From Chloroflexota bacterium (GTDB lineage: Bacteria; Chloroflexota; Anaerolineae; Anaerolineales; E44-bin32): DNA of 64,000 bases. Of the stretch, positions 799-14,216 are shown in pieces. Below the pieces are notes generated by a model, which saw only the letters and a list, made by a program, of their open reading frames with translations, searched no databases and was not told the origin of the DNA. Location of the stretch: positions 1-64,000 of the forward strand of contig JADFRQ010000005.1 in assembly GCA_022561215.1 (NCBI GenBank), in the 5' to 3' direction. The translations under genes and the position numbers were made by a program. The stretch's first letter is position 1. Each line of letters starts with the position of its first letter.

Positions 799-3700
799 GT
801 GAATATGCAATCGAAGTCCCAGGTTTGTCCCAATTGCTCCTCGGAAAACCCTGCTGACGCGAAGTTCTGTCAACAATGCGGGCAACCTCTTGCGTTGCTC
901 TGCCATAACTGCAGCACTTCAAACGACAGCAACGCGAAATTTTGTAAAAATTGCGGCTTCGAACTAAGGGCGGCCGTCGATAACAATCAGGAAACTAGGT
1001 TAAGTTCGCTGCAACAATCTGCGCCGAGCAGTTTTCGGGAAAAGATGCGTGCGGCGACGACTGCACTCGAAGGCGAGCGCAAACATGTCAGCATCCTGTT
1101 TGTCGACATCGTTGGCTCCACGTCGATTGCCGAGAAACTCGATCCGGAAGAGTGGAAGGAAGTAGTCACCGGTGTCCATCGCCGCGTAGGAGAAGCGATT
1201 TATCGCTACGAGGGTACTATTGCTCAACTTCTCGGCGACGGCGTGTTGGCATTCTTTGGGGCGCCGGTGACGCATGAAGACGACCCCGTGCGGGCGGTGC
1301 GCGCCGGACTGGATTTGCTCGAAAGCATCCAATCATACCGTGAGGAACTCACCGGCTATATCGAGGATTTTCATGTTCGTGTGGGGATCAATACTGGCAC
1401 AGTCGTCATCGGCAATATCGGCTCCGATATGCACATGGAGTACACCGCGTTGGGCGATGTCGTCAACGTCGCCAGCCGGATCGAATCATCCGCCTACGCG
1501 GGAACCGTATTGGTTTCTGAAGAAACTTTTCGGCTTGCAACAGATCAAATCGAGTTCAAGGATTACCGTGAGATCAGCGCCAAGGGGAAAAGAGAAGCGG
1601 TCAAGGTTTTTGAAGTCATTGGCCTGCGCAACTCGCTCGTGGGGCAAACACCGGTAATCGAATCGAGTTTCGTCGGTCGTGAGAAGGAATTGGCTGTGAT
1701 GCAAGATGTTCTGCTCTCATTGAGCAGCGGCCGCGGCCAAGTTGTCGTCGTATTGGGAGAAGCAGGCATTGGGAAGAGCCGCTTTATGAGGGAAGCGCGT
1801 GCTCACAGTGCGCGAAATTACAATATGAGGCAGGCTGAAATTGATAGCGAATCGCTTTTGGTGCCTCCTTCGGGATTACGCTGGTTGGTTGGCCGATCTG
1901 TCTCCTATGGCGAATCATTGTCTTTTCGGGTGATCACCCAGCTTTTGCTCGCCGATCTAAGTCTACCAGAAGGCACACCTGAAGCAAGAGTAGAAATCGC
2001 TCTGCGTAAACGCGTAAAAGAACTCTTTAATTCCGATGGCGGCGACATCCTGCCTTTATTAACCAACCTCCTGGGGCTGAAACTTGGATCAAAGGCCAGA
2101 GAACTTATCCAATCCGCAAGTGGTGAAACCTTAAGACGGCGCACCCTGGACGCCATTGCGGCCTACTTCTCGGCGGTTGCTGAAGAACAACCGATCGCGC
2201 TTGTGTTTGAAGACATGCATTGGGCTGATCCCTCGAGCATGCAGACCCTGGAGAAGCTCATTGAGCTAACCGACCGTCTGCCGTTATTGATCCTGTGTGT
2301 GATGCGCATCGAAAAGGAACATCGCTCATGGAAGATTAAACTGCTTGCCGAAACTGATTATGCTCATCGTTATATGGAAATTCAACTCCTTTCGCTTACG
2401 CAAGGTGAGTCTGCAGCCTTGGTCGATGGGTTGTGGGGTTACTCAGAGCTACCGCAAGATATCCAGAAATTGGTGATGATGAAGTCAGAAGGTAATCCAC
2501 TTTACATTGAGGAGGTGAGCCATCATCTAGTTGAGCTGGGCGTTCTCGTTAAAAGCAATGGAAAATGGGAGGCGGCGGAGAAAATCAGTGAGATCGGCAT
2601 TCCGGAAACATTGCAGGGCGTGCTTTTAGCGCGTATCGATCGCCTGGAGAAGGACGTGCGCCAAACACTTCAATTAGCATCGGTTATTGGCAGAAGTTTC
2701 CTCTACAAAGTGTTGCATGCCATTTCCGCATCCGAAGAGCAGCTTGACGCCCACCTGACACAGTTGCAGCGGTCTGATCTGGTGCGAGAAAACACACGCT
2801 TGCCTGAACTGGAATACATCTTCAAACATGCACTCACCCAGGAGGCGGCTTACAATTCACTGCTGATCGAGCGTCGTACGGAATTTCACCGCCTTGTTGG
2901 CCAGGCGCTCGAAAATCTGTTTCCGGAGCAGGCGGATGAATTTACCGGGCTCCTGGCGCACCATTGGGATCGTGCTGGTGATGTCAAAAAGGCCTCGAAG
3001 TACCTCACCCTTGCGGGCGAGCGCGCGCGCCGATTGCACGCCCATCATGAAGCCCTTGTCCATTTTGACCGGGCGATTGAGCTTTCGGATAAAGGGACGC
3101 ATGAATACATCGCGCTACTCCGCAAGAGAGCTCAAGTGTACGTCGATTTGTTTCAAGGTAAACCGGCCGTTGCTGACTTTGATGAAATTAATTCCTTTGC
3201 CCATGCAGAAGATAATCACACCATCGAGTTAGAAGCGCTATTGGGCCTTGGCCGTGCGTATTACATTGTTGCTTTGGACGAGCCCGGGGCCGATGTTCCC
3301 GAAAATTCACGCAAGAATTATGAACTAGCCTACGATCTTGCAAAGAGCCTCGACGATAAGGCCGGAATGGTTAAAGCGCTTTTGCCAACCATTTACCTTG
3401 CAGATTTCTGGCCTGATTATGAGGATCAGGTCGAGGCGAATATGAAGGAGGCCGCGGAGCTTAGCTTGAGCATTGACGATGATGATCTTGCTCTAGAAAA
3501 CGAATTGGCTCAGTTTCAGATTGCTCCTACCACACAAAAAATAGAATTATTTTCGGGGTTGCGATCCAAGCTCGAGACAAAGCAAGACTTGACGCGCTTA
3601 AACATGGTTCATTTTTTCATGATGTGGGCTTATCTCGAACAAGGACTTTTCGAGCGCGCAGTTGAAACATGTGATTCCGGGATCGCGTTAGCGAAAAGAA

Positions 3701-4479
3701 TCGGCGTGCCGCCGGTCCAATATCCCACCCTGAAAGGTTGGGCCTTAATGCGGCTCGGTCGCTTTGACCAGGCATTCGGCTCATTTCAGCAAGAAGTATC
3801 GGACGAGGATCACCGCTTCGGAAGGGTATTCAGGGATTTTGGTTATGCCATCACTTATCTTCAATTACTCGATCACGACCAGGCCAGAATAATGTTGGAG
3901 GTCGTGCTCAAGGAAGCACAGCTCCTCAACCGCGCCTGGCTTATCAGCAGAGCAAACGCCTATATTATCCCCGCTATGCTCGGGGGTAGGAACAGCGAGC
4001 CTCAGGTACCGAATGATATTCTCGATCAATTAGAAGAAGGGAATTTGCCGAAAGCGAGTATCGCGAGCGGTGCTTACCTTCTTTCCAAGGGGAAGCACAA
4101 GGAGGCCCTAGAAAAGGCCGATGCTGCTTATGCCCTGGCAACAGAATACACACACCAACCCGATAAAGTAAACGCGATCCTGCTCAAAGCTCGAGTTCTT
4201 ACCCAAATCGGTGACCATGGAAAATCCCTCGCTGCTGCGCAGGAGGGCATCCGCATTGCAACAGAAATTGAATATGTACCTCTGCTCTGGCAGTTGCATG
4301 CGATCAAAGCCGAAACTCACTCCGCATTGGGTGATGCAACAGAAGCTTCTCATTCGAATAAGCAAGCGGGAGAAGTCATTCAGCAGCTCGCAGATACTAT
4401 TTCCGATGAACAACTCAAGGCCGGTTTTCTTGGACACCCCAGGATCTCCTCCATCCTGGGAGCGATCGGCAATCCCTAA
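799..4479 (+). CDS. Zinc-ribbon / class III cyclase / AAA (STAND-type) ATPase / TPR fusion
   Basis: Predicted cytoplasmic signalling protein of 1226 residues. Two CxxC-type zinc ribbons lie at about residues 10-55 (CPNC, CQQCG, CHNC, CKNCG). A class III nucleotide cyclase domain covers about 90-270, with the metal aspartates visible in LFVDIVGST and GDGVLAFFG and the catalytic Asn/Arg in DVVNVASR. A P-loop ATPase follows (Walker A GEAGIGKS near 320, Walker B VFEDMHWAD near 475). Helical TPR-like repeats fill the second half. The architecture is common in Chloroflexota, cyanobacteria and proteobacteria; the signal and targets are unknown. Translation may start at GTG 799 or ATG 805; neither has a strong ribosome site and an in-frame stop lies upstream. 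The first serine hydrolase begins 21 bases after its stop, suggesting co-transcription. Confidence 0.9.
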   Translation: MNMQSKSQVCPNCSSENPADAKFCQQCGQPLALLCHNCSTSNDSNAKFCKNCGFELRAAVDNNQETRLSSLQQSAPSSFREKMRAATTALEGERKHVSILFVDIVGSTSIAEKLDPEEWKEVVTGVHRRVGEAIYRYEGTIAQLLGDGVLAFFGAPVTHEDDPVRAVRAGLDLLESIQSYREELTGYIEDFHVRVGINTGTVVIGNIGSDMHMEYTALGDVVNVASRIESSAYAGTVLVSEETFRLATDQIEFKDYREISAKGKREAVKVFEVIGLRNSLVGQTPVIESSFVGREKELAVMQDVLLSLSSGRGQVVVVLGEAGIGKSRFMREARAHSARNYNMRQAEIDSESLLVPPSGLRWLVGRSVSYGESLSFRVITQLLLADLSLPEGTPEARVEIALRKRVKELFNSDGGDILPLLTNLLGLKLGSKARELIQSASGETLRRRTLDAIAAYFSAVAEEQPIALVFEDMHWADPSSMQTLEKLIELTDRLPLLILCVMRIEKEHRSWKIKLLAETDYAHRYMEIQLLSLTQGESAALVDGLWGYSELPQDIQKLVMMKSEGNPLYIEEVSHHLVELGVLVKSNGKWEAAEKISEIGIPETLQGVLLARIDRLEKDVRQTLQLASVIGRSFLYKVLHAISASEEQLDAHLTQLQRSDLVRENTRLPELEYIFKHALTQEAAYNSLLIERRTEFHRLVGQALENLFPEQADEFTGLLAHHWDRAGDVKKASKYLTLAGERARRLHAHHEALVHFDRAIELSDKGTHEYIALLRKRAQVYVDLFQGKPAVADFDEINSFAHAEDNHTIELEALLGLGRAYYIVALDEPGADVPENSRKNYELAYDLAKSLDDKAGMVKALLPTIYLADFWPDYEDQVEANMKEAAELSLSIDDDDLALENELAQFQIAPTTQKIELFSGLRSKLETKQDLTRLNMVHFFMMWAYLEQGLFERAVETCDSGIALAKRIGVPPVQYPTLKGWALMRLGRFDQAFGSFQQEVSDEDHRFGRVFRDFGYAITYLQLLDHDQARIMLEVVLKEAQLLNRAWLISRANAYIIPAMLGGRNSEPQVPNDILDQLEEGNLPKASIASGAYLLSKGKHKEALEKADAAYALATEYTHQPDKVNAILLKARVLTQIGDHGKSLAAAQEGIRIATEIEYVPLLWQLHAIKAETHSALGDATEASHSNKQAGEVIQQLADTISDEQLKAGFLGHPRISSILGAIGNP

Positions 4480-4500: not shown

Positions 4501-5670
4501 ATGAAACTTCGCCATGGAACACCAGAGGAAGCAGGCGTTTCGGCTACTGCCACTAAGCTGATCGTAGCGCGCGGACAGCAATGGATTGACAAGGGCATTC
4601 ACCCCGCGCTGGTAGTGCTCGCCGCGCGCAAAGGCGTTATCTTTCTCCAGGAAGCCTACGGAAAGCTGACGCCAGCGGAAGATGCTCCGCATCTCTCGCT
4701 GGATGCGATTTTCGGTCTTGCTTCGCTCACCAAGCCCATCACTGCCACGTGTGCGATGCTCCTTGTGGAGGATGGTCTCTTGGGATTGAACCGTCCCCTG
4801 CAAGAATACATCCCCGAGTTTGTTGGCGAGGGCAAAGAGCAGGTGATGGTGCATCATTTGCTGACGCACACCTCCGGGCTTGCCCAGGATGATGTGATTT
4901 GGGATGACGTCGTCACGCAGGGGCTGAACTTTGATGAAATTTCTGACCTTGCGAAAAACGAACATTCCGCAATTCATTATTACCTGCAATATGCGATCGA
5001 AGCTGCTGCCGTCCGCAGACCTGGGGAATGGATGGAATACAGCAACGCGGGCATTTACCTACTCGGCGAAATTGTGCGCCGGGTGAGCGGTAATTCTTTG
5101 GACGCGTTTGCCACCCATCGGATTTTCGAGCCCTTAGGAATGAAAAGCACACGCTACATCCTGCCGCTCGAGCTGCAGCAGCGCGTATGTCTGAGTCCCG
5201 ATAACGCCCCAGGCGATTTCTTAAATGACATCGAATTCATGGAACGGCCCTCACCCGCAGCGGGTGTCTATTCATCCGCAAGGGATATGGCGATCTTTGG
5301 CCAGATGTTCCTAAACCAAGGCCATTACGGCGATGTACAGATTTTGAGCCCGATCACTGTCGCGGCGATGACCCGTAACCAACTGCCGGGTGTTAGAGCG
5401 AAATACTTTGGGGATGAGTTCCCTGAAGCCTCATGGGGGTTGGGGTGGAGCGTGACTGCCGAATTCAAAGGTGAAATTTATGGCGAACAACTGCTCTCGC
5501 CGATCTCTTACGGTCATGGCGGCGGGGGAGGTACCGTCCTGTGGATGGATCCCGAAAAAGAACTCCTTTTGGTTTATTTCTCGATCGAAACGCAAACCTC
5601 GGAGGATCGACCGATACTCAGCGCCGATTTATTTATGAACATGGTCGTCGCGGCGATTAAGGATTATTAA
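4501..5670 (+). CDS. Serine hydrolase, beta-lactamase class C fold (array copy 1)
   Basis: Member of the class C beta-lactamase / esterase / D-Ala-D-Ala peptidase-like fold. The catalytic triad motifs are complete: SLTK at residues 75-78 (nucleophile serine and general-base lysine), YSN at 180-182, and the third motif HGGGGG starting at 339. The 389 residues match the usual length of this family. There is no signal peptide, so it is probably cytoplasmic; a penicillin-degrading role is not implied and most such proteins are esterases or peptidases of unknown substrate. It is the best-preserved of four tandem paralogues, all beginning with a MKLR-like sequence followed by G-T/S-x-E-E/Q. AGGA precedes the ATG at suitable distance. 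Confidence 0.9.
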   Translation: MKLRHGTPEEAGVSATATKLIVARGQQWIDKGIHPALVVLAARKGVIFLQEAYGKLTPAEDAPHLSLDAIFGLASLTKPITATCAMLLVEDGLLGLNRPLQEYIPEFVGEGKEQVMVHHLLTHTSGLAQDDVIWDDVVTQGLNFDEISDLAKNEHSAIHYYLQYAIEAAAVRRPGEWMEYSNAGIYLLGEIVRRVSGNSLDAFATHRIFEPLGMKSTRYILPLELQQRVCLSPDNAPGDFLNDIEFMERPSPAAGVYSSARDMAIFGQMFLNQGHYGDVQILSPITVAAMTRNQLPGVRAKYFGDEFPEASWGLGWSVTAEFKGEIYGEQLLSPISYGHGGGGGTVLWMDPEKELLLVYFSIETQTSEDRPILSADLFMNMVVAAIKDY

Positions 5671-5713
5671 ACCCGAGCATAGGTTGGCTGGTGTTGCAAA
5701 TGGACATAACAAC

Positions 5714-6436
5714 ATGAAACTTCGATCAGGCACCCCGGAAGAAGGAGGCGTGTCACCTGGCGCGATCGTGCGCATTCGTGAACGCTGTGAGGGTTGGGTC
5801 AAAGACGGGCTGCATTCCGCATTGGTGGTCATCGCCGCACATAGAGGTGTTATCTTCCTGGAGGAAGCCTATTGGAAACTTTCGCCCGCGCATGATGCGC
5901 CTGATCTAAAAATAGACGCGATTTTCGGCCTCTCATCGCTCAGCAAACCCATCACTTCCACTTGTGCGATGATCCTCGTGGAGGATGGTCTCTTGGGCTT
6001 GAACCGGCCTCTGCAGGAATATATTCCTGAATTTGTTGGCGAGGGAAAAGAGCAGGCGATGGTGCATCAATTGCTCACACATACCGCGGGTCTCAGTGAT
6101 GATGCCGTGGTCGAGGTGATCACCAAGAAAATCGAGGATAAAATTGATCTTCCCGAAATGGATGAAACTCAACATCCGCGCAATCACGGCACCCTGCACT
6201 ATGGATATGACACGCCACTTTCAACCTGTCCTGGTGAAGTTATGGTATACGGCGAGCAGCTGCTTTCACCCTCCTATTCTGTACATGGAGGTTCCGGCGG
6301 CGTGGTGTTGTGGATCGATCCTATCCAGGAGATCGTGGGCGTGTTTTTTTCGATTTTAACTCAGACTCTAGATGATCGACCATTATTGGGAGCAGACCTC
6401 TTCATGAACATTTTTGCCGCCGCGGTCGAGGACTAG
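5714..6436 (+). CDS. Internally deleted beta-lactamase-fold paralogue (array copy 2)
   Basis: Closest to copy 1 in sequence, but only 240 residues long. The N-terminal half is intact, including SLSK at residues 75-78. It then jumps from PGEVMVY (where copy 1 has PGEWMEYSN) straight to GEQLLSP and the HGGSGG third motif near 191. About 147 residues, including the YxN catalytic loop and most of the helical subdomain, are missing, yet the frame is kept. Hydrolase activity is therefore unlikely; this is either a pseudogene in the making or a binding-only remnant. I chose ATG 5714 because it aligns with the starts of the other copies; the track start at 5684 (TTG) adds ten residues with no counterpart. 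Confidence 0.85.
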   Translation: MKLRSGTPEEGGVSPGAIVRIRERCEGWVKDGLHSALVVIAAHRGVIFLEEAYWKLSPAHDAPDLKIDAIFGLSSLSKPITSTCAMILVEDGLLGLNRPLQEYIPEFVGEGKEQAMVHQLLTHTAGLSDDAVVEVITKKIEDKIDLPEMDETQHPRNHGTLHYGYDTPLSTCPGEVMVYGEQLLSPSYSVHGGSGGVVLWIDPIQEIVGVFFSILTQTLDDRPLLGADLFMNIFAAAVED

Positions 6437-6443
6437 GCGATCG

Positions 6444-7613
6444 ATGAAGCTGCATGCTGGCACACCAGAGCAGGCGGGTATTTCGCCGTCGGCTGTTGAT
6501 TTAATTCATGAGCGCGGGCAGGAATGGATTGACAAGGGGATGCACTCTGCGCTTGTGCTTCTGGCCGTTCGCAAAGGCGTTATCTTTTTAAATGATGCTT
6601 TTGGACAGCGGTCACAGGGCGATGAACCAGGATCGCTGCCGCTCAATACTATTTTCCCGCTGGCCTCAATTACCAAAATTATCACCGTAACCGCGGCGAT
6701 GACGCTCGTCGAGGAGGGCCGCCTCGGCCTTAACCGACCGGTCCAAGAATACATCCCGGAGTTTCAGGGCAAAAACAAAGAGAAGGTGATGGTGCATCAG
6801 TTAATGACCCACACCGCGGGGATCGACGATGAAGCTGTTTTTCAAGCGATCAACAAGAAAGAAGACGAGGAAATCGATCTCCCAGCAAGGGAAGCGAGCG
6901 CGCATCCGACGCTCCACCGCTGGCTGCATATCGGGCTCTCCATTCCGCTTATCCTTTATCCCGGCACTGAAATGTTGTACAGCGGCTTCGGGATCCAGTT
7001 GCTCGGCGAGATTCTGCGCCGCCTGAGTGGGCAATCACTGGACGATTACGCTCGCGATAGAATTTTTCATCCATTGGGAATGCGCGACACCTTTTACAGC
7101 ATTCCTGAGGATGTTCGCCAACGCGTGGTAATACACGCGGAAGAAGGCCCATACGCCGAGGAGAATGATCCCTCAATCCAGGAGCGTCCGTCTCCGTCGG
7201 GCGGCGCGTTTTCAACCGCTATGGACGCCGCCGTGTTCGGACAAATGTTCCTTAACAAGGGTACCTATGATGGGAAGCGCGTGCTGAGCCCTGCAGGTGT
7301 CTCCGTAATGACGCGCAATCAACTGCCCGGAATCTCAGCCCGACTGCTTACCGAGGTCTACCCGGAGGCGAGTTGGGGGTTGGGCTGGAGCGTGAATCAT
7401 GCCTACAAAGGGCAAGTGTATGGCGAGGCCTTGCCATCAAATTCAACCTTTCTTCACACCGGCGGAGGTGGTGTTTTGCTCTGGGTCGATCCTGCGCTGG
7501 AGATCGTGGGTGTATACTTTTCGACTGAGTTAAGCACCAACGAAGACGGTTTGCATGTTTGGAATGCGGATTTATTTATGAACATGGTCAGCGCAAGTGT
7601 GGAAGACACGTAA
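6444..7613 (+). CDS. Serine hydrolase, beta-lactamase class C fold (array copy 3)
   Basis: Full-length paralogue, 389 residues from ATG 6444, which aligns exactly with copy 1; the track start 30 bases earlier overlaps copy 2 and was rejected. The nucleophile motif SITK is conserved at residues 75-78. The second motif reads YSG instead of YSN and the third reads HTGGGG, so the asparagine normally expected in the active site is missing. It starts 8 bases after the stop of copy 2, indicating one transcript. Substrate unknown. The altered YxN motif suggests changed or weakened catalysis, but tyrosine, the key base in this fold, remains. Confidence 0.88.
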   Translation: MKLHAGTPEQAGISPSAVDLIHERGQEWIDKGMHSALVLLAVRKGVIFLNDAFGQRSQGDEPGSLPLNTIFPLASITKIITVTAAMTLVEEGRLGLNRPVQEYIPEFQGKNKEKVMVHQLMTHTAGIDDEAVFQAINKKEDEEIDLPAREASAHPTLHRWLHIGLSIPLILYPGTEMLYSGFGIQLLGEILRRLSGQSLDDYARDRIFHPLGMRDTFYSIPEDVRQRVVIHAEEGPYAEENDPSIQERPSPSGGAFSTAMDAAVFGQMFLNKGTYDGKRVLSPAGVSVMTRNQLPGISARLLTEVYPEASWGLGWSVNHAYKGQVYGEALPSNSTFLHTGGGGVLLWVDPALEIVGVYFSTELSTNEDGLHVWNADLFMNMVSASVEDT

Positions 7614-7641
7614 TGTGTTATCTTCAGCAGGGAAGTTCGAC

Positions 7642-8805
7642 TTGAAACTAAGGGAAGGCTCGACAGAAGAAGTCGGGGTCTCTATGGACCGAGTGCAGAA
7701 GGTCCGCGACATGGCGCAAGGCTGGGTTGATGATGGCATCCATCCCTCGCTCGTGGTAATTGCCGCTCGCCGGGGTGTGGTCTTCCTGCACGAGGCATTT
7801 GGCCGACTGGGTCCGGAGGAAGGCGCACCCCCGCTGCAAAAGGACACCATCTTCCCGCTGGCCTCGATCTCGAAACCGATCACCGCCACTGCAGCGATGA
7901 TCCTGGTTGAGGAAGGACTGTTAGGTCTCAACCGACCGGTGAAAGACTATGTCCCTGAGTTCGAGGGTGAAGACAAAAACCAGGTTCTTATTCGCCAACT
8001 GCTCACCCACACCTCGGGACTCAGCGACAGCGACCTTATCAAACACGCAAATGGGGAAGGCATCGAACTGGATGAGGAGTCGAGTATTCCATGGATTACT
8101 AAAAATGTGAATGCCTATCTGGACCTGGTCTGCCAAATGCCTCTGGGAAATCCACCTGATACAGAAATGATCTACGCCGACCTTAATTACAACTTGCTGG
8201 GAGCGGTAATCCATCGCGTCTCGGGAATAAGTCTTTCCGATTTTGCGGAACAGCGGATTTTTCAACCGTTGGGCATGAAAGACACCAGCTACATCGTATC
8301 CGATACAGCGCTAGATCGGGTCGTACAGCGTTCTCCCGATGTCCCAGATTACGACCTAACTTCCAGCTTAATGAAGTCAAGTCTGGGGAGCGCCGGCGCG
8401 TACTCCACGGTAATGGACATAGCGTTATTCGGGCAGATGTTCCTTAATCACGGACGTTATGGCGGCACACGCATTCTAAGCCGAGCTTCTATCGAGGCGA
8501 TGACGCACAACCAAATCCCGGGGATTGGAGCGCAGTTTTTGGGGGATAAGCTTAGCGAAGCGGAATGGGGTCTCGGTTGGAGCACGCATATCAATAAGAA
8601 GACCTGGCGATGGGACGAGGCCCTGCAATCGCCGACATCCTACTCGCATGGCGGATCCGGCGGCGTGATGTTGTGGGTCGACCCTGTATACGAATTCGTT
8701 GCCGCTTACTTCGCAGTTTGTCCAGGCTTCCGAAAGAATGGTTGGCCAATAACGAATGCGGATCTTTTCATCAATGCCGCGTTGGCAACAATCGTTGATC
8801 TATAA
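7642..8805 (+). CDS. Serine hydrolase, beta-lactamase class C fold (array copy 4)
   Basis: Fourth and most divergent paralogue. The motifs are SISK at residues 75-78, YAD where copy 1 has YSN, and HGGSGG near the C-terminus. The chosen start is TTG 7642 (reads L-K-L-R-E-G), because it aligns with the N-termini of the other copies and sits behind an AGGGAAG ribosome site; the track's GTG 7597 would overlap copy 3 and add 15 residues without counterpart. GTG 7615 is a further option. No signal peptide. The four genes share segments such as GLLGLNRP and the C-terminal NADLFMN / GADLFMN type ending, evidence for recent tandem duplication. Confidence 0.87.
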   Translation: MKLREGSTEEVGVSMDRVQKVRDMAQGWVDDGIHPSLVVIAARRGVVFLHEAFGRLGPEEGAPPLQKDTIFPLASISKPITATAAMILVEEGLLGLNRPVKDYVPEFEGEDKNQVLIRQLLTHTSGLSDSDLIKHANGEGIELDEESSIPWITKNVNAYLDLVCQMPLGNPPDTEMIYADLNYNLLGAVIHRVSGISLSDFAEQRIFQPLGMKDTSYIVSDTALDRVVQRSPDVPDYDLTSSLMKSSLGSAGAYSTVMDIALFGQMFLNHGRYGGTRILSRASIEAMTHNQIPGIGAQFLGDKLSEAEWGLGWSTHINKKTWRWDEALQSPTSYSHGGSGGVMLWVDPVYEFVAAYFAVCPGFRKNGWPITNADLFINAALATIVDL

Positions 8806-9161
8806 CATATCGTTTCTCTTCAGCGCCAGCCATTTCCCTCGCTCGCAATCTATTATCAGCGTATTTACCTGTTGAACCATAGTTGATTCCAATTGATTTA
8901 TCTCCACAACCAACAATATCCTGAATCCTGCAAAGTGTTACGAAACCGAGCATCTCAAATTTATCGTAAGGTCTTTGAGATGTAAGCTGCATTAGCGAAA
9001 TTATAAGGCACTGCCGCTATAACAGGATAAGGCTTGTGAGCTAATCGTGATCCAATTGCATTCAATTTGTGTACCCCCGGCAGAATTTATTATGATCAGA
9101 GGGTGTCGTCGCGGTAAACTTAAAACGATGCCTGATTCCATTTTTATCTCATGGAGTTGCT
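8806..9161. other. Intergenic gap between hydrolase array and the giant regulator
   Basis: About 356 bases without a convincing gene. A 73-codon minus-strand frame overlapping the end of copy 4 has no recognisable sequence. A promoter for the next gene probably lies here; GGAG sits five bases before its TTG start. No hairpin terminator with a T-run was found. Confidence 0.5.
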
Positions 9162-12100
9162 TTGTCTGAATATACGATCTCGCTTTTCGGCCAGGTGCGC
9201 CTGGCGCAGAACGGCCAGCCGATCGAAATCCCCCATCGCAAGGGCTTGGCGCTGCTAGCCTTTCTTGCGCTCGAGAAACAGCGGAGTCCCAGGATCGATC
9301 TTGCCACCATGTTCTGGCCCGAATATAAATCGACTCGCGCTTTGGCCAATCTACGCCGAACATTGTGGATACTGGAGCAATCCAAGTTCAGTACAGTATT
9401 AATTGTTTCCGACGATCACGTCCAGCTTAATACCGATAGTAAGTTGGTGATTGATGTTGATCAATTCCGAAATGCTCTAGAACCATGGCGCAACTCGGAT
9501 GAAACAAGCAGCAAACTACAACAAGAGCACTACGACTCGCTGGTGCAATCCACCGAAATTTATGAGGATGACTTCCTTGCGGATTTACATCTTCCCGATA
9601 GCAAAACCTTCGAGGATTGGGCTTCCCAACAGCGCCAGGATCTTCGCCGGGATATGCTCGAAGCCTTGGCTGCACTTACGCGCCATCACCTTGCGCACGA
9701 AGAATATGACCCTGCCCAAACTTTTGGCTGGCGACAGTTAGAAATCGACCCGCTATCTCAGATCGCTCTACGGCAGTTGATGATTACCTTATCAAAAAGC
9801 AATCATCCGCGCGCGGCGCTCGCATTATTTGAAAACTTCCGCAAACTGGCCGAACGAGAAAGCGTGGACTTGGACGAGAAAACGCGCAAACTCCAGGAAC
9901 AGATTCATGATCAAATGCAAGCGAGTCAACTAGCGGCCGCGAGTGAGCGCGAGGCCGAACTCGCTCCTGATCGTCATGCTCCCATTCCAATGCCAGTTTT
10001 TTTGTTTACGGATATTGAGGACTCCACTCGACTTTGGGATGAGCACCGCGAAGCGATGCTGCCAGCATTATTGAAGCATAACGCAATTATTGAAGACACT
10101 ATTACAGAATACGGTGGTCAGATACTCGAGATGCGTGGAGACGGCTTTTGGGCGGTGTTTGAGCGAGGGGATCCCTTAGCAAGTGCATTGGCTATTCAAG
10201 TAGCTTTCGGAAGTACTGATTGGGGCGCACTGGACGAACTGCGCATCCGCATTGGTTTGCACGGTGTTTCGAGGGATTGGGAAGGGTATGACTTCTTTAA
10301 AAGCAACGATTCCTATTACGGCTCAGTCCTCAATCAAGCCGCTCGATTAATGCAAGCTGGCTGGGGTGGTCAAATTTTGAGCTCCTCAAGTATCAGAGAT
10401 GCGTTGCCAATGCCTGATCGCGGTTCCTGGCAAGAGTTCGGCGAACATGATCTCGAAGGCCTAGAGGAACCGCTTCACATTTTTGGTTTACTCCACCCTG
10501 AGTTACCCCATCAAACTTTCCCCGAACTACGCACGTTAACCTCAGGATCCGGATTAGGACAAGGCGGGATTGAATCGACAAGTCCTTATCGTGGTTTGTT
10601 TGCATTTCGGGAGGAAGACTCCCCCTATTTCTTTGGTCGCGAAAGCTTCACGGAATTACTCTCTGAATCCGTCCATCAACGCTCAATGGTGGCGGTAGTT
10701 GGTCCATCTGGAAGTGGGAAATCATCCGTGGTCCACGCGGGTCTGCTTGCCCAACTGCGTCGAGAAGGGAAATGGCTCATTACATCCTTTCGACCGGGCA
10801 ATCGGCCCTTCCATGCTCTTGCAGCTGCCCTAATCTCCCGCCTCGAGCCACAATTGAGCGAAACCGATCGTTTGGTGGAGACCAACAAACTAGCCCAAGC
10901 TTTTCAGCAAGGCGATGCCTCGCTAATGGACGTGATCCAGCGCATTCTTGACAAACAAGAGCCCGGTACCCGCTTCCCGCTGGTGGGTGATCAATTTGAA
11001 GAGCTTTATACCCTTGTCCCGGAAGCCGAGATCAGGGCGCGCTTTATGGATACCCTGACCGATGCGGTCTTTGAGCAGCAGTATCGTAGTGCTCCAGTTT
11101 TTTCACTGATCCTCACGCTGCGTGCGGATTTCATGGGCCAGGCTCTCGCACATCGTCCATTTGCAGATGCGCTTCAGGAATCAGACGTCAAATTGGGACC
11201 AATGACGGATCCTGAGCTCAGGCGAGCAATTGTCGATCCTGCAAGGAAATTAGGTGTTGCCTTCGAGCCCGGCCTAAGCGCGCGCATTTTAGATGATGTG
11301 GGCGACGAACCCGGGAACTTGCCTTTGTTGGAATTCGCCTTAGCGATGCTGTGGGAAAAAAGAGAAGGCGCATCGTTGACGCATTCTGCCTATGAGGCAA
11401 TAGACCGCGTGGATGGGGCCTTGGCCCGCCATGCGGACGCAGTCTTTTCGGATCTTTCTCCAGACGAGAAAGACTTGGCGCGGCATGTATTTACGCAAGT
11501 AGTTCGACCTGGCGAGGGGACCGAAGACACTCGACGCCTGGCGACACGGTCTGAATTAGGCGATAAAAGTTGGAAGCTCGTTCAGCGCCTTGCTGATTCC
11601 CGCCTCCTGGTTACCAGTCGAGACACATCAGGCGTAGAAACCGTCGAAGTGGTGCATGAAGCCTTGATCCGTGGTTGGGCGCGCTTACGCGACTGGATGC
11701 GCATCGATCGCTCGTTTCGTGTGTGGCAAGAACGCTTGCGCGCCGCCATTCGTCAATGGGATTCAACGGAGAGAGACGATGGAGCACTCTTGCGCGGTGT
11801 GAGCCTGAGCTCCGCAGAAGAATGGTTGAATGAACGATCGGATGCTCTCAGCGGAGAAGAGGTGAAATTTATCCAAACAAGCCTCAACTTGCGTGACGCG
11901 CGTCAAGCAGCACGTGAACGCCAGCGGCGTCGTATCACGATCGGGCTTGTTTCTGGACTTGTGGTGACCCTTATCCTGGCAGGATTAGCAATCGTGCAAT
12001 GGCAAACGGCTTCCGAGGAACGCGATATTGCACAGTTCGCCAGATCACGTCAATTAGTCGCCCAAGCCCTGACGTTGAGGGATCGACAACTAGACTTGGC

Positions 12101-14216
12101 ATTGCTCTTGGCAAATGAGGCCGCGCGCATCACAGATACGAAAGAAACGCAATCGAGCCTGAGAACCGTGCTCGAATCAAATCTCAGGCTGGTGCAGTAT
12201 TTACCACCCATTGTCCCTGACTTCGATGCGGTATTCAGGTCTTCAAGCTTTGGAACCAATATTGATAGGAGCATCCTTGCATTGGGAGATACCGACGGCG
12301 AGATTACACTTTGGGATCTGGTTGCTGGAGAGCTGCTTGAACTAACGCTTCAACGTATCGGAATTCCTATTGGCGAGATGGTATTTAGCCCGGACGGAAT
12401 GCTTTTAGCATCAGGGGGTGATGATGGCGTCATATTCGTTTGGAATCTGACATCTGGCGGGCTATATACCACTCCCCTTAAAGGGCATCAAGGGATTATT
12501 ACGGATTTGGCCTTTAGCCCAGATAGCAAAATTTTAGCCTCCGGAGGCGAGGATACGGAGGTCCTGCTGTGGGAGATGGAGAGTGGTACACGTATTGGAT
12601 CCGCGCTTATCGGTCATAGAGCGGATGTGACGGACCTGAAGTTCAGTCCGGACGGTCAATATCTGGTCTCAGCTGGGGAAGACGGATTAATCCTGCTTTG
12701 GGATCTTTCTACTGAAGAGGCTACAAGCACCCCTTTCATTGGGCATCCTGTATCCTCAGTAATTGAAGTCTTATTCAGTCCTGACGGAAAAATCATCGCC
12801 TCCGCTGGCCAGGATCGTCAGGTGATTCTTTGGGATGTTTCCACGGCGCGGCCCTCCAACATACCCCTCATTGGTCATGAAGATGACCTCACCAGCTTAG
12901 CCTTTGGCCCTGAAAGCCGATTCCTGGCATCCGCAGACGAAGGCGGAACTATTTACCTTTGGGATGTTGCTACAGGGAATGCGCTAGGTCCGCCATTGAT
13001 CGATGAAAATAACCCGATTCGCGATCTGTGGTTCAGCGATGATGGAGAATACGTATTCTCTTTTAGGGGGAATGCAGGCATCCAATGGAAATTTACAGAG
13101 GCTGGTATTATCACGCAGACGGCCGCCTTGGACTTGGATCGTGACGTGGTAACTTTGGCCATTAGCCAGGATAAATCTCAATTATTTGCAGCTATTTGTG
13201 ACGTAACACGGTGCGATGAAGTAGAGGCCTCCGCTTGGAGCGTGAGTACCGGCGAGGAGATAGACTCAACCATCATCGTCTCAGGGGGAGATCCTTTCTG
13301 GATTCGGAAATTTAGCTCTGGTGGGGAATACTTGGCGCTGGGCACCGTTGAAGGACCAGTGTTTCTATTCGATAGGAAACGTGGAGAAACGCGCACATTA
13401 AGCGGACCACAATTGCCGATTGCTAGCCTTGCTTTCAGTGCTGATGGAAGCACGTTGGTTGGAGGCGGATGCGGGCAAGGAAATCTATCAACCGGGATAT
13501 GCTCGCAAGGTGAGATCTGGTTCTGGGATCTTGCAACTGGTGAAGCCAACGGTCCCCCTCTCGGCGGTCACGAGCAGGGAATCAATGGCGTCGCCCTGAG
13601 CTCGGACGGCCGTACGTTGGTATCTGGAGACGGCGATGGCAAGATCCTTGTCTGGGATCTTGAGACGGGACTACCAAACGGTGTGTCAATCATGATAGAG
13701 GCCGGATTGATTGGAATGGCGCTTAGCCCCGAAGGGAATGTGCTCGCAACCTATTCAAATGGTCCCCTAATATTTTTATGGGATTTAAGTACGGGCAATC
13801 AGATTGGTCGTCCGTTAGCCGACCCTGGCGGTATTGTAAGCGAGATTGCCTTCAGTCCGGACGGCTCGATCATGGCATCGGTAAATGCGGGCAACCAGGT
13901 GACATTATGGGATATCTCCAGCGGGCGCGTGATCGGCGATCCACTTGGCGGTCATACAGATGACGTAATTAGCCTCGCCTTCAGCACTGATGGAAAGATG
14001 CTGGCGACAGGCAGCAGGGATCAAAGAGTTATTTTGTGGAGTCTAGCTGGAGGTGAATTGGCGTTCAGCTTTCTGGGATTGGATCTTAAACAGCTGAGCG
14101 CTGAAGCCTGCCGCCGGGCCAATCGCAATTTGACGCTTGATGAATGGGAGCAATATTTCCCGGGCGAGGATTATCACGCTACTTGTCCTGAACTTCCGAT
14201 CCCTACTGCCAGCTGA
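9162..14216 (+). CDS. SARP/BTAD - class III cyclase - STAND NTPase - TM - WD40 multidomain regulator
   Basis: A 1684-residue signalling protein with five modules in order. An OmpR-type winged-helix DNA-binding domain plus BTAD helical domain covers about 1-245 (LSEYTISLFGQV; FWPEYKSTRALANLRRTLW). A class III cyclase covers about 275-440, with metal aspartates in FTDIEDSTRLW and MRGDGFWAVF. An nSTAND1-like NTPase follows, with Walker A VVGPSGSGKSS near 512 and Walker B-like DQFEELYT. One membrane helix lies at about 925-947 (GLVSGLVVTLILAGLAIVQW). About 13 WD40 repeats (x-x-LWDL endings) run from 1035 to 1630, enough for two propellers. A protein with a DNA-binding head and a single membrane span would place the WD40 part outside the cell. 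Start is TTG 9162 behind GGAG. Ligand and targets are unknown. Confidence 0.9.
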   Translation: MSEYTISLFGQVRLAQNGQPIEIPHRKGLALLAFLALEKQRSPRIDLATMFWPEYKSTRALANLRRTLWILEQSKFSTVLIVSDDHVQLNTDSKLVIDVDQFRNALEPWRNSDETSSKLQQEHYDSLVQSTEIYEDDFLADLHLPDSKTFEDWASQQRQDLRRDMLEALAALTRHHLAHEEYDPAQTFGWRQLEIDPLSQIALRQLMITLSKSNHPRAALALFENFRKLAERESVDLDEKTRKLQEQIHDQMQASQLAAASEREAELAPDRHAPIPMPVFLFTDIEDSTRLWDEHREAMLPALLKHNAIIEDTITEYGGQILEMRGDGFWAVFERGDPLASALAIQVAFGSTDWGALDELRIRIGLHGVSRDWEGYDFFKSNDSYYGSVLNQAARLMQAGWGGQILSSSSIRDALPMPDRGSWQEFGEHDLEGLEEPLHIFGLLHPELPHQTFPELRTLTSGSGLGQGGIESTSPYRGLFAFREEDSPYFFGRESFTELLSESVHQRSMVAVVGPSGSGKSSVVHAGLLAQLRREGKWLITSFRPGNRPFHALAAALISRLEPQLSETDRLVETNKLAQAFQQGDASLMDVIQRILDKQEPGTRFPLVGDQFEELYTLVPEAEIRARFMDTLTDAVFEQQYRSAPVFSLILTLRADFMGQALAHRPFADALQESDVKLGPMTDPELRRAIVDPARKLGVAFEPGLSARILDDVGDEPGNLPLLEFALAMLWEKREGASLTHSAYEAIDRVDGALARHADAVFSDLSPDEKDLARHVFTQVVRPGEGTEDTRRLATRSELGDKSWKLVQRLADSRLLVTSRDTSGVETVEVVHEALIRGWARLRDWMRIDRSFRVWQERLRAAIRQWDSTERDDGALLRGVSLSSAEEWLNERSDALSGEEVKFIQTSLNLRDARQAARERQRRRITIGLVSGLVVTLILAGLAIVQWQTASEERDIAQFARSRQLVAQALTLRDRQLDLALLLANEAARITDTKETQSSLRTVLESNLRLVQYLPPIVPDFDAVFRSSSFGTNIDRSILALGDTDGEITLWDLVAGELLELTLQRIGIPIGEMVFSPDGMLLASGGDDGVIFVWNLTSGGLYTTPLKGHQGIITDLAFSPDSKILASGGEDTEVLLWEMESGTRIGSALIGHRADVTDLKFSPDGQYLVSAGEDGLILLWDLSTEEATSTPFIGHPVSSVIEVLFSPDGKIIASAGQDRQVILWDVSTARPSNIPLIGHEDDLTSLAFGPESRFLASADEGGTIYLWDVATGNALGPPLIDENNPIRDLWFSDDGEYVFSFRGNAGIQWKFTEAGIITQTAALDLDRDVVTLAISQDKSQLFAAICDVTRCDEVEASAWSVSTGEEIDSTIIVSGGDPFWIRKFSSGGEYLALGTVEGPVFLFDRKRGETRTLSGPQLPIASLAFSADGSTLVGGGCGQGNLSTGICSQGEIWFWDLATGEANGPPLGGHEQGINGVALSSDGRTLVSGDGDGKILVWDLETGLPNGVSIMIEAGLIGMALSPEGNVLATYSNGPLIFLWDLSTGNQIGRPLADPGGIVSEIAFSPDGSIMASVNAGNQVTLWDISSGRVIGDPLGGHTDDVISLAFSTDGKMLATGSRDQRVILWSLAGGELAFSFLGLDLKQLSAEACRRANRNLTLDEWEQYFPGEDYHATCPELPIPTAS

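Follow-up and report, generated by a model that had tools for sequence, protein, structure and literature searches.

A tandem array of family VIII-like hydrolases next to a cyclase-AAA_16-TPR gene in a Chloroflexota bacterium: a candidate signalling gene cluster

Family VIII carboxylesterases, among them EstB, EstU1 and EH7, combine the beta-lactamase fold with an SxxK nucleophile. Their second motif is Y-X-X in all subfamilies, and the third motif is H-X-X in subfamily VIII.3 (PMC9795927). Class C beta-lactamases (AmpC) belong to the same superfamily and carry YAN and KTG (PMC9795927). A further beta-lactamase homologue, BmmI, attaches acyl groups from thioesters (PMC12653809), its role being polyketide modification. 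On the side of signalling, Pycsar consists of a PycC cyclase and an effector. Most of the genomes that we examined encode several large proteins of the cyclase- or kinase-AAA-TPR type and, to our knowledge, little is known about the cues to which these respond. The locus described below brings a set of beta-lactamase-fold enzymes together with one protein of this large type.

The window, i.e., the whole stretch of DNA that was analysed, comprises 64,000 nt of a Chloroflexota bacterium (GCA_022561215.1, contig JADFRQ010000005.1, positions 1-64,000, forward strand). Four consecutive open reading frames of the S12/PF00144 family were called on the plus strand at window positions 4501-8805, with possible spans of 4501-5670, 5684/5714-6436, 6414/6444-7613 and 7597/7642-8805, and a large partner gene precedes them:

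799..4479, plus strand: partner gene, GTG start, 1226 aa; double zinc ribbon, class III adenylate/guanylate cyclase, AAA_16 NTPase, C-terminal TPR
4501..5670, plus strand: copy 1, type A, 389 aa; SLTK 75-78, YSN 180-182, HGG 339-341; PF00144 209 bits
5714..6436, plus strand: copy 2, type A, 240 aa; internal in-frame deletion; SLSK 75-78, HGG 191-193; Y-G-E at the junction
6444..7613, plus strand: copy 3, type A, 389 aa; SITK 75-78, YSG 179-181, HTG 338-340
7642..8805, plus strand: copy 4, type B, 387 aa from TTG; SISK 75-78, YAD 178-180, HGG 336-338

All four copies exceed the curated Pfam cut-off of 27 bits for PF00144 (209, 82, 197 and 201 bits for copies 1-4), which supports the tandem array of four paralogous beta-lactamase-fold hydrolases, and the tandem expansion, proposed in a first-pass annotation of this DNA. 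Its description of similar C-termini and of an S-x-x-K motif at residues 75-78 in every copy also holds, provided that copy 4 begins at TTG 7642. The annotation was silent on the third motif (H-G-G or H-T-G) and on the upstream gene 21 bp away. The 3.39 Mb assembly contains no PF00144 gene beyond these four. Identity to copy 1 is 60% for copy 2, 51% for copy 3 and 48% for copy 4. The hydrolase genes are separated by 43, 7 and 28 bp, copy 1 starts 21 bp after the partner gene, no terminator-like site was found in the gaps between the genes of the cluster, and a promoter and terminator scan gave matches at chance level only. The gene cluster is probably an operon, whose members would be co-transcribed. 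Because hydropathy reveals no signal peptide or transmembrane segment in any of the copies, the hydrolases are probably cytosolic, like their partner. The partner itself matches AAA_16 (77.6 bits) and TPR_12 and has Walker A and B motifs (GEAGIGKS, LVFEDMHWAD). A second large signalling gene (window 9162-14216, plus strand, 1684 aa), with a cyclase-like region, an nSTAND1 NTPase and WD40 repeats, lies 356 bp past the array.

Among solved structures, the hydrolases come closest to the acyltransferase BmmI and to two esterases, EstG and EstU1. Copy 1 finds its best PDB sequence match in BmmI (6kjh family, E 4e-36), and the AF2 model of copy 4, a full beta-lactamase/esterase fold (pLDDT 91.2, pTM 0.93), is most similar to BmmI (6kjp, TM 0.81/0.87), followed by EstG and the family VIII carboxylesterase 4ivi (TM 0.80/0.77), with EstB (1ci8) at TM 0.69/0.71 and AmpC-type enzymes further off. 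Identity to BmmI is only about 28%, and the scanned neighbours of the array include no polyketide pathway. The array shares with family VIII the fold, the SxxK nucleophile and the Y-x-x motif, and its H-G-G or H-T-G corresponds to the H-x-x of VIII.3 (PMC9795927); the W-X-G of VIII.1 and VIII.2 is replaced by HGG or HTG. In contrast to the known family VIII carboxylesterases, to which it is 22-26% identical in structure alignments, the array has tandem A and B types and is linked to a cyclase/kinase-AAA_16-TPR gene. Subfamily VIII.3 is also marked by the lack of a G-X-S-X-G nucleophile motif; in the array, the GxSxG string is absent from copies 1 and 3 and occurs at residue 337 of copy 4 and residues 12 and 192 of copy 2, away from the SxxK serine. 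The fold, SxxK and Tyr are also common to class C beta-lactamases, but the array lacks YAN, KTG and a signal peptide, and with the NCBIfam class C model copies 1, 3 and 4 reach 51-62 bits and copy 2 27 bits, far below the cut-off of 415.

The second motif was the basis of the claim, in the first-pass annotation, that active-site motifs are lost by degrees along the array. The catalytic Tyr is nevertheless retained in copy 1 (Y180), copy 3 (Y179) and copy 4 (Y178), the third motif is kept by all four copies, and copies 1, 3 and 4 all possess Ser, Lys, Tyr and His. The residues that follow the Tyr vary in intact relatives (YSN, YSS, YSD, YDD, YCG), while S, K and Y are invariant across an alignment of 27 homologues from which copy 2 was left out. 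Since family VIII is defined by Y-X-X, YSN, YSG and YAD do not form a decay series, and graded decay of this motif was rejected. Copies 1, 3 and 4 are thus equipped with the residues that acyl-enzyme chemistry requires and are predicted to be active.

Copy 2 is the sole damaged copy of the array, and the other three are apparently intact. Its second motif had been noted as absent, which is correct in that the domain bearing this motif has been deleted, though not by drift: about 150 codons are gone in frame between M177 and VYGEQ (240 vs 389 aa). At the junction, near window positions 6240-6250, a Tyr (Y-G-E) lines up with motif 2, derived from a short TAY match shared by both break points, but the motif does not exist there as a domain. 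An assembly collapse of identical repeats is unlikely, as identity to copy 1 reaches only about 60% on either side of the junction. The AF2 model of copy 2 is weak (pLDDT 77, pTM 0.60), with a mean of 51 for the SxxK block and a poorly modelled junction, and copy 2 is probably a truncated, inactive extra copy. By parsimony with copy 3 as outgroup, 21 amino-acid changes fall on the lineage of copy 2 and 28 on that of copy 1; without an excess of changes, the deletion is probably recent or the remainder is still constrained.

Synonymous sites are saturated between the copies, so that rate ratios are rough and the codon-position bias of differences was used instead as a check on constraint. A bias toward third positions is seen in every pair compared, including copies 1 and 3 (142, 116 and 240 differences at codon positions 1, 2 and 3) and copy 4 and the second hydrolase of the related genome G026, G026b (137, 109 and 269). 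In a tree of the C-terminal half, the upstream copies (1, 3, G026a, G003a) form clade A and the last copies (4, G026b, G003b) form clade B; the tree constrained to this split equals the best tree, copy 3 is nearest to G026a, and copy 4 groups with G003b and, in this half, with G026b too. An origin of the copies within each genome is rejected (p-AU 0.001 for the C-terminal half, 1e-7 for the full length). The middle segment rejects both the A/B and the within-genome trees. The unconstrained full-length tree does not recover the A/B split, yet does not reject it, and places G026b beside G026a, probably because of gene conversion: G026a and G026b (L082 3657-6089) are 83-95% identical in DNA over residues ~100-200 and 47-76% elsewhere. 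Between copies 1 and 2, identity is 83-88% in alignment columns 76-125. Gene conversion has likely occurred in the middle segment of the hydrolases, the G026 tract spanning motif 2. An ancient A-B pair is supported in the C-terminal half of the sequences, and A-type and B-type enzymes are probably ancestral in the taxonomic family, acting as a pair. The division of labour suggested earlier gains some support, in that types A (copies 1-3) and B (copy 4) stand in the same order in three genera. In the relatives, one or two hydrolase genes are present and no motif is lost, so that both the additional A copies and the deletion in copy 2 arose locally, in the lineage of the window. This largely corresponds to the outcome that the annotation itself had named as speaking against its reading.

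The order of partner gene followed by hydrolase(s) recurs with tight spacing at five loci in four genomes of two phyla, all of them metagenome-assembled or draft genomes. Within the taxonomic family of the window genome, hydrolases were found in three of 27 genomes (that of the window, G026 and G003), which represent three genera. G026 has two tandem hydrolases that begin 8 bp after a zinc-ribbon/cyclase/AAA_16/TPR gene. In G003 the two hydrolase domains are fused into a single A-B protein of 801 aa, whose gene starts 2 bp past a Ser/Thr-kinase/AAA_16/TPR gene. The available sequence 3' of the G003 hydrolases holds no counterpart of the second signalling gene of the window (9162-14216). The remaining two loci, L030 and L092, belong to one Poribacteria genome: at L030 there is one hydrolase gene, which shares 4 bp with the end of the cyclase gene, and at L092 one intact hydrolase follows a cyclase-type partner whose 3' end looks frame-shifted. 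With one intact hydrolase at each Poribacteria locus, the A-B pair is not obligatory. L092 also contains a broken second tandem hydrolase (8751-9567), with residues 1-114 and ~214-380 in two overlapping frames and without the middle part that includes motif 2, parallel to copy 2 of the window. The cyclases of L030 and L092 have apparently lost the transition-state Asn (DIVVAKR and EIVLAKR vs VVNVASR in the window), both metal-binding Asp being kept, so that cyclase output may not be general; the cyclase of the hydrolase-free paralogue L093 retains this Asn (DINLAKR).

Relatives of the hydrolases also stand alone, in Paenibacillus species and in G885, in genomes without a match to the TPR part, which means that the enzyme does not need the sensor everywhere. 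In all five Paenibacillus species at L014-L018, motif 2 reads YCG and a Cys replaces the His of the third motif (CGG). The hydrolase was found in none of the other genomes among 396 genomes of the class, and the module in no viral contig. The TPR type was not found on plasmids, whose hydrolases are at most 42.5% identical. The open-access literature yielded no description of an operon or gene pair of cyclase-AAA-TPR and hydrolase.

The part of the partner with which the hydrolases are inherited was narrowed down by searching its C-terminal TPR region alone (P0001, window 2899-4476). Three of 101 relatives have this region, and they are the very genomes that carry hydrolases (the chance that two independently drawn sets of three coincide is 6e-6); no further genome of a 301-genome phylum sample has it. 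Two natural domain swaps are seen. Compared with the partner of the window, that in G003 is 22% identical in its AAA part and 46/39% in its TPR part, has a kinase as its N-terminus, and is accompanied by hydrolases, while Poribacteria C99, with 35% in the AAA part (53% to the paralogue in L030) and 21/20% in the TPR part, has none. Other cyclase- or kinase-AAA_16-TPR signalling proteins have the same domain order as the partner, and the other strong AAA_16 genes of these genomes differ in their C-terminus and lack an adjacent S12 hydrolase. Among the 21 strong AAA_16 genes (E below 1e-17) listed across four genomes, an adjacent PF00144 gene accompanies all five of the TPR type and none of the 16 others, a split expected by chance once in 20,349 cases if the loci, which are not fully independent, are treated as such. 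One of these 16, G743 C321, has another PF00144 gene about 7 kb off. The domain swaps thus show that the hydrolases go with the TPR part rather than with the cyclase, kinase or AAA region. TPR and hydrolase together form the unit that stays constant, and the output domain can be exchanged.

The reading that we favour, with a probability of roughly 0.55, is that the array supplies the enzymes of a conserved signalling gene cluster composed of a cyclase/kinase-AAA_16-TPR ATPase and family VIII-like hydrolases. The product of the first gene would be a cytosolic ATPase for signal transduction, in which the AAA_16 domain is the switch, the C-terminal TPR region the sensor and an exchangeable N-terminal domain the output (a cyclase in the window and G026, a Ser/Thr kinase in G003). 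Its gene is followed by those of one or more putative cytosolic serine hydrolases or acyltransferases with SxxK, Y-x-x and H-x-G motifs. In the cytosol, these enzymes may bind a small compound with an acyl, ester or amide group or turn it over, the TPR region would read the hydrolase (free or acylated) or its product, and the AAA_16 domain would then switch the cyclase or kinase output. In the simplest reading, the cue sensed by the TPR region is one that the hydrolases produce, remove or carry, where we infer the substrate, the physical contact and the direction of the signal. Co-inheritance as a linked block could also reflect transfer of the operon without direct interaction.

Alternatively, the hydrolases may be the effectors of an immune-like or conflict system, in which an invader or a stress is detected by the AAA_16/TPR ATPase and some compound of the cell is then destroyed by the co-expressed hydrolases. 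The patchy distribution (three of 27 genomes of the family) is consistent with this, exchangeable cyclase and kinase N-termini, copy-number change, decay and fusion are typical of such systems, and NTPase-peptidase-cyclase conflict systems have been described (PMC7159879). The cyclase domain of the partner also matches the PycC models of PADLOC (1.8e-21) and the kinase of G003 matches the PD-T4-6 models, but these matches span only the general cyclase and kinase domains, and the hydrolases have no PADLOC match. The cluster differs from Pycsar in its additional AAA_16/TPR part and hydrolases and, with no Pycsar effector among the scanned proteins, does not belong to Pycsar; no phage or mobile context was seen, the neighbours with a Pfam match are mostly housekeeping or metabolic, and beta-lactamase-fold enzymes are not mentioned in the text of the eLife survey (PMC7159879). 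We favour processing or direct reading of a cue over an effector role, because an effector should track the ATPase or output domain at least as well as the TPR part, and we consider the conflict system unlikely.

About equally doubtful is an ordinary degradative or detoxifying esterase operon, in which the large protein would be no more than a substrate sensor that acts at a distance on expression or activity, and the extra copies would serve dosage or substrate range. Tandem copies and gene conversion fit selection for dosage, the Paenibacillus relatives stand alone among varied neighbour genes, and family VIII esterases are broad-range hydrolases (PMC9795927). Pfam, however, finds no DNA-binding domain in the putative sensor, and such an operon leaves unexplained both the A-B fusion of G003 and the fact that the hydrolases follow the TPR part rather than the output domain. 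Somewhat less probable again is a specific form of cue reading, in which the hydrolases act as cytosolic covalent receptors: acylation of the A-B pair by a small acyl compound, or deacylation of the pair, would be read directly by the TPR superhelix, after which the cyclase or, in another lineage, the kinase would fire. Stepwise decay of a tandem expansion, in which copies 3 and 4 have become binding proteins as first proposed, is very improbable: extra copies do decay (copy 2 is truncated and the second Poribacteria copy is broken in two frames), but Ser, Lys, Tyr and His are all present in copies 3 and 4, substitutions show a third-position bias, copy 4 models as a full fold, and the third residue of motif 2 is variable both among intact relatives and in the way the family is defined.

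A caution that arises from the array is that the third residue of Y-x-x should not be taken as a sign of decay. In the loci compared here, a defined enzyme pair is co-inherited with one type of TPR in two phyla despite the swap of the output domain, and this persistence suggests that contact with the enzyme or its product is made by the TPR. If the covalent-receptor form were true, an enzyme-TPR pair that stays constant while its output domain is swapped would amount to a soluble equivalent of beta-lactam-type sensing, of a kind not described before. The TPR and the enzyme together offer a testable ligand-sensor pair.
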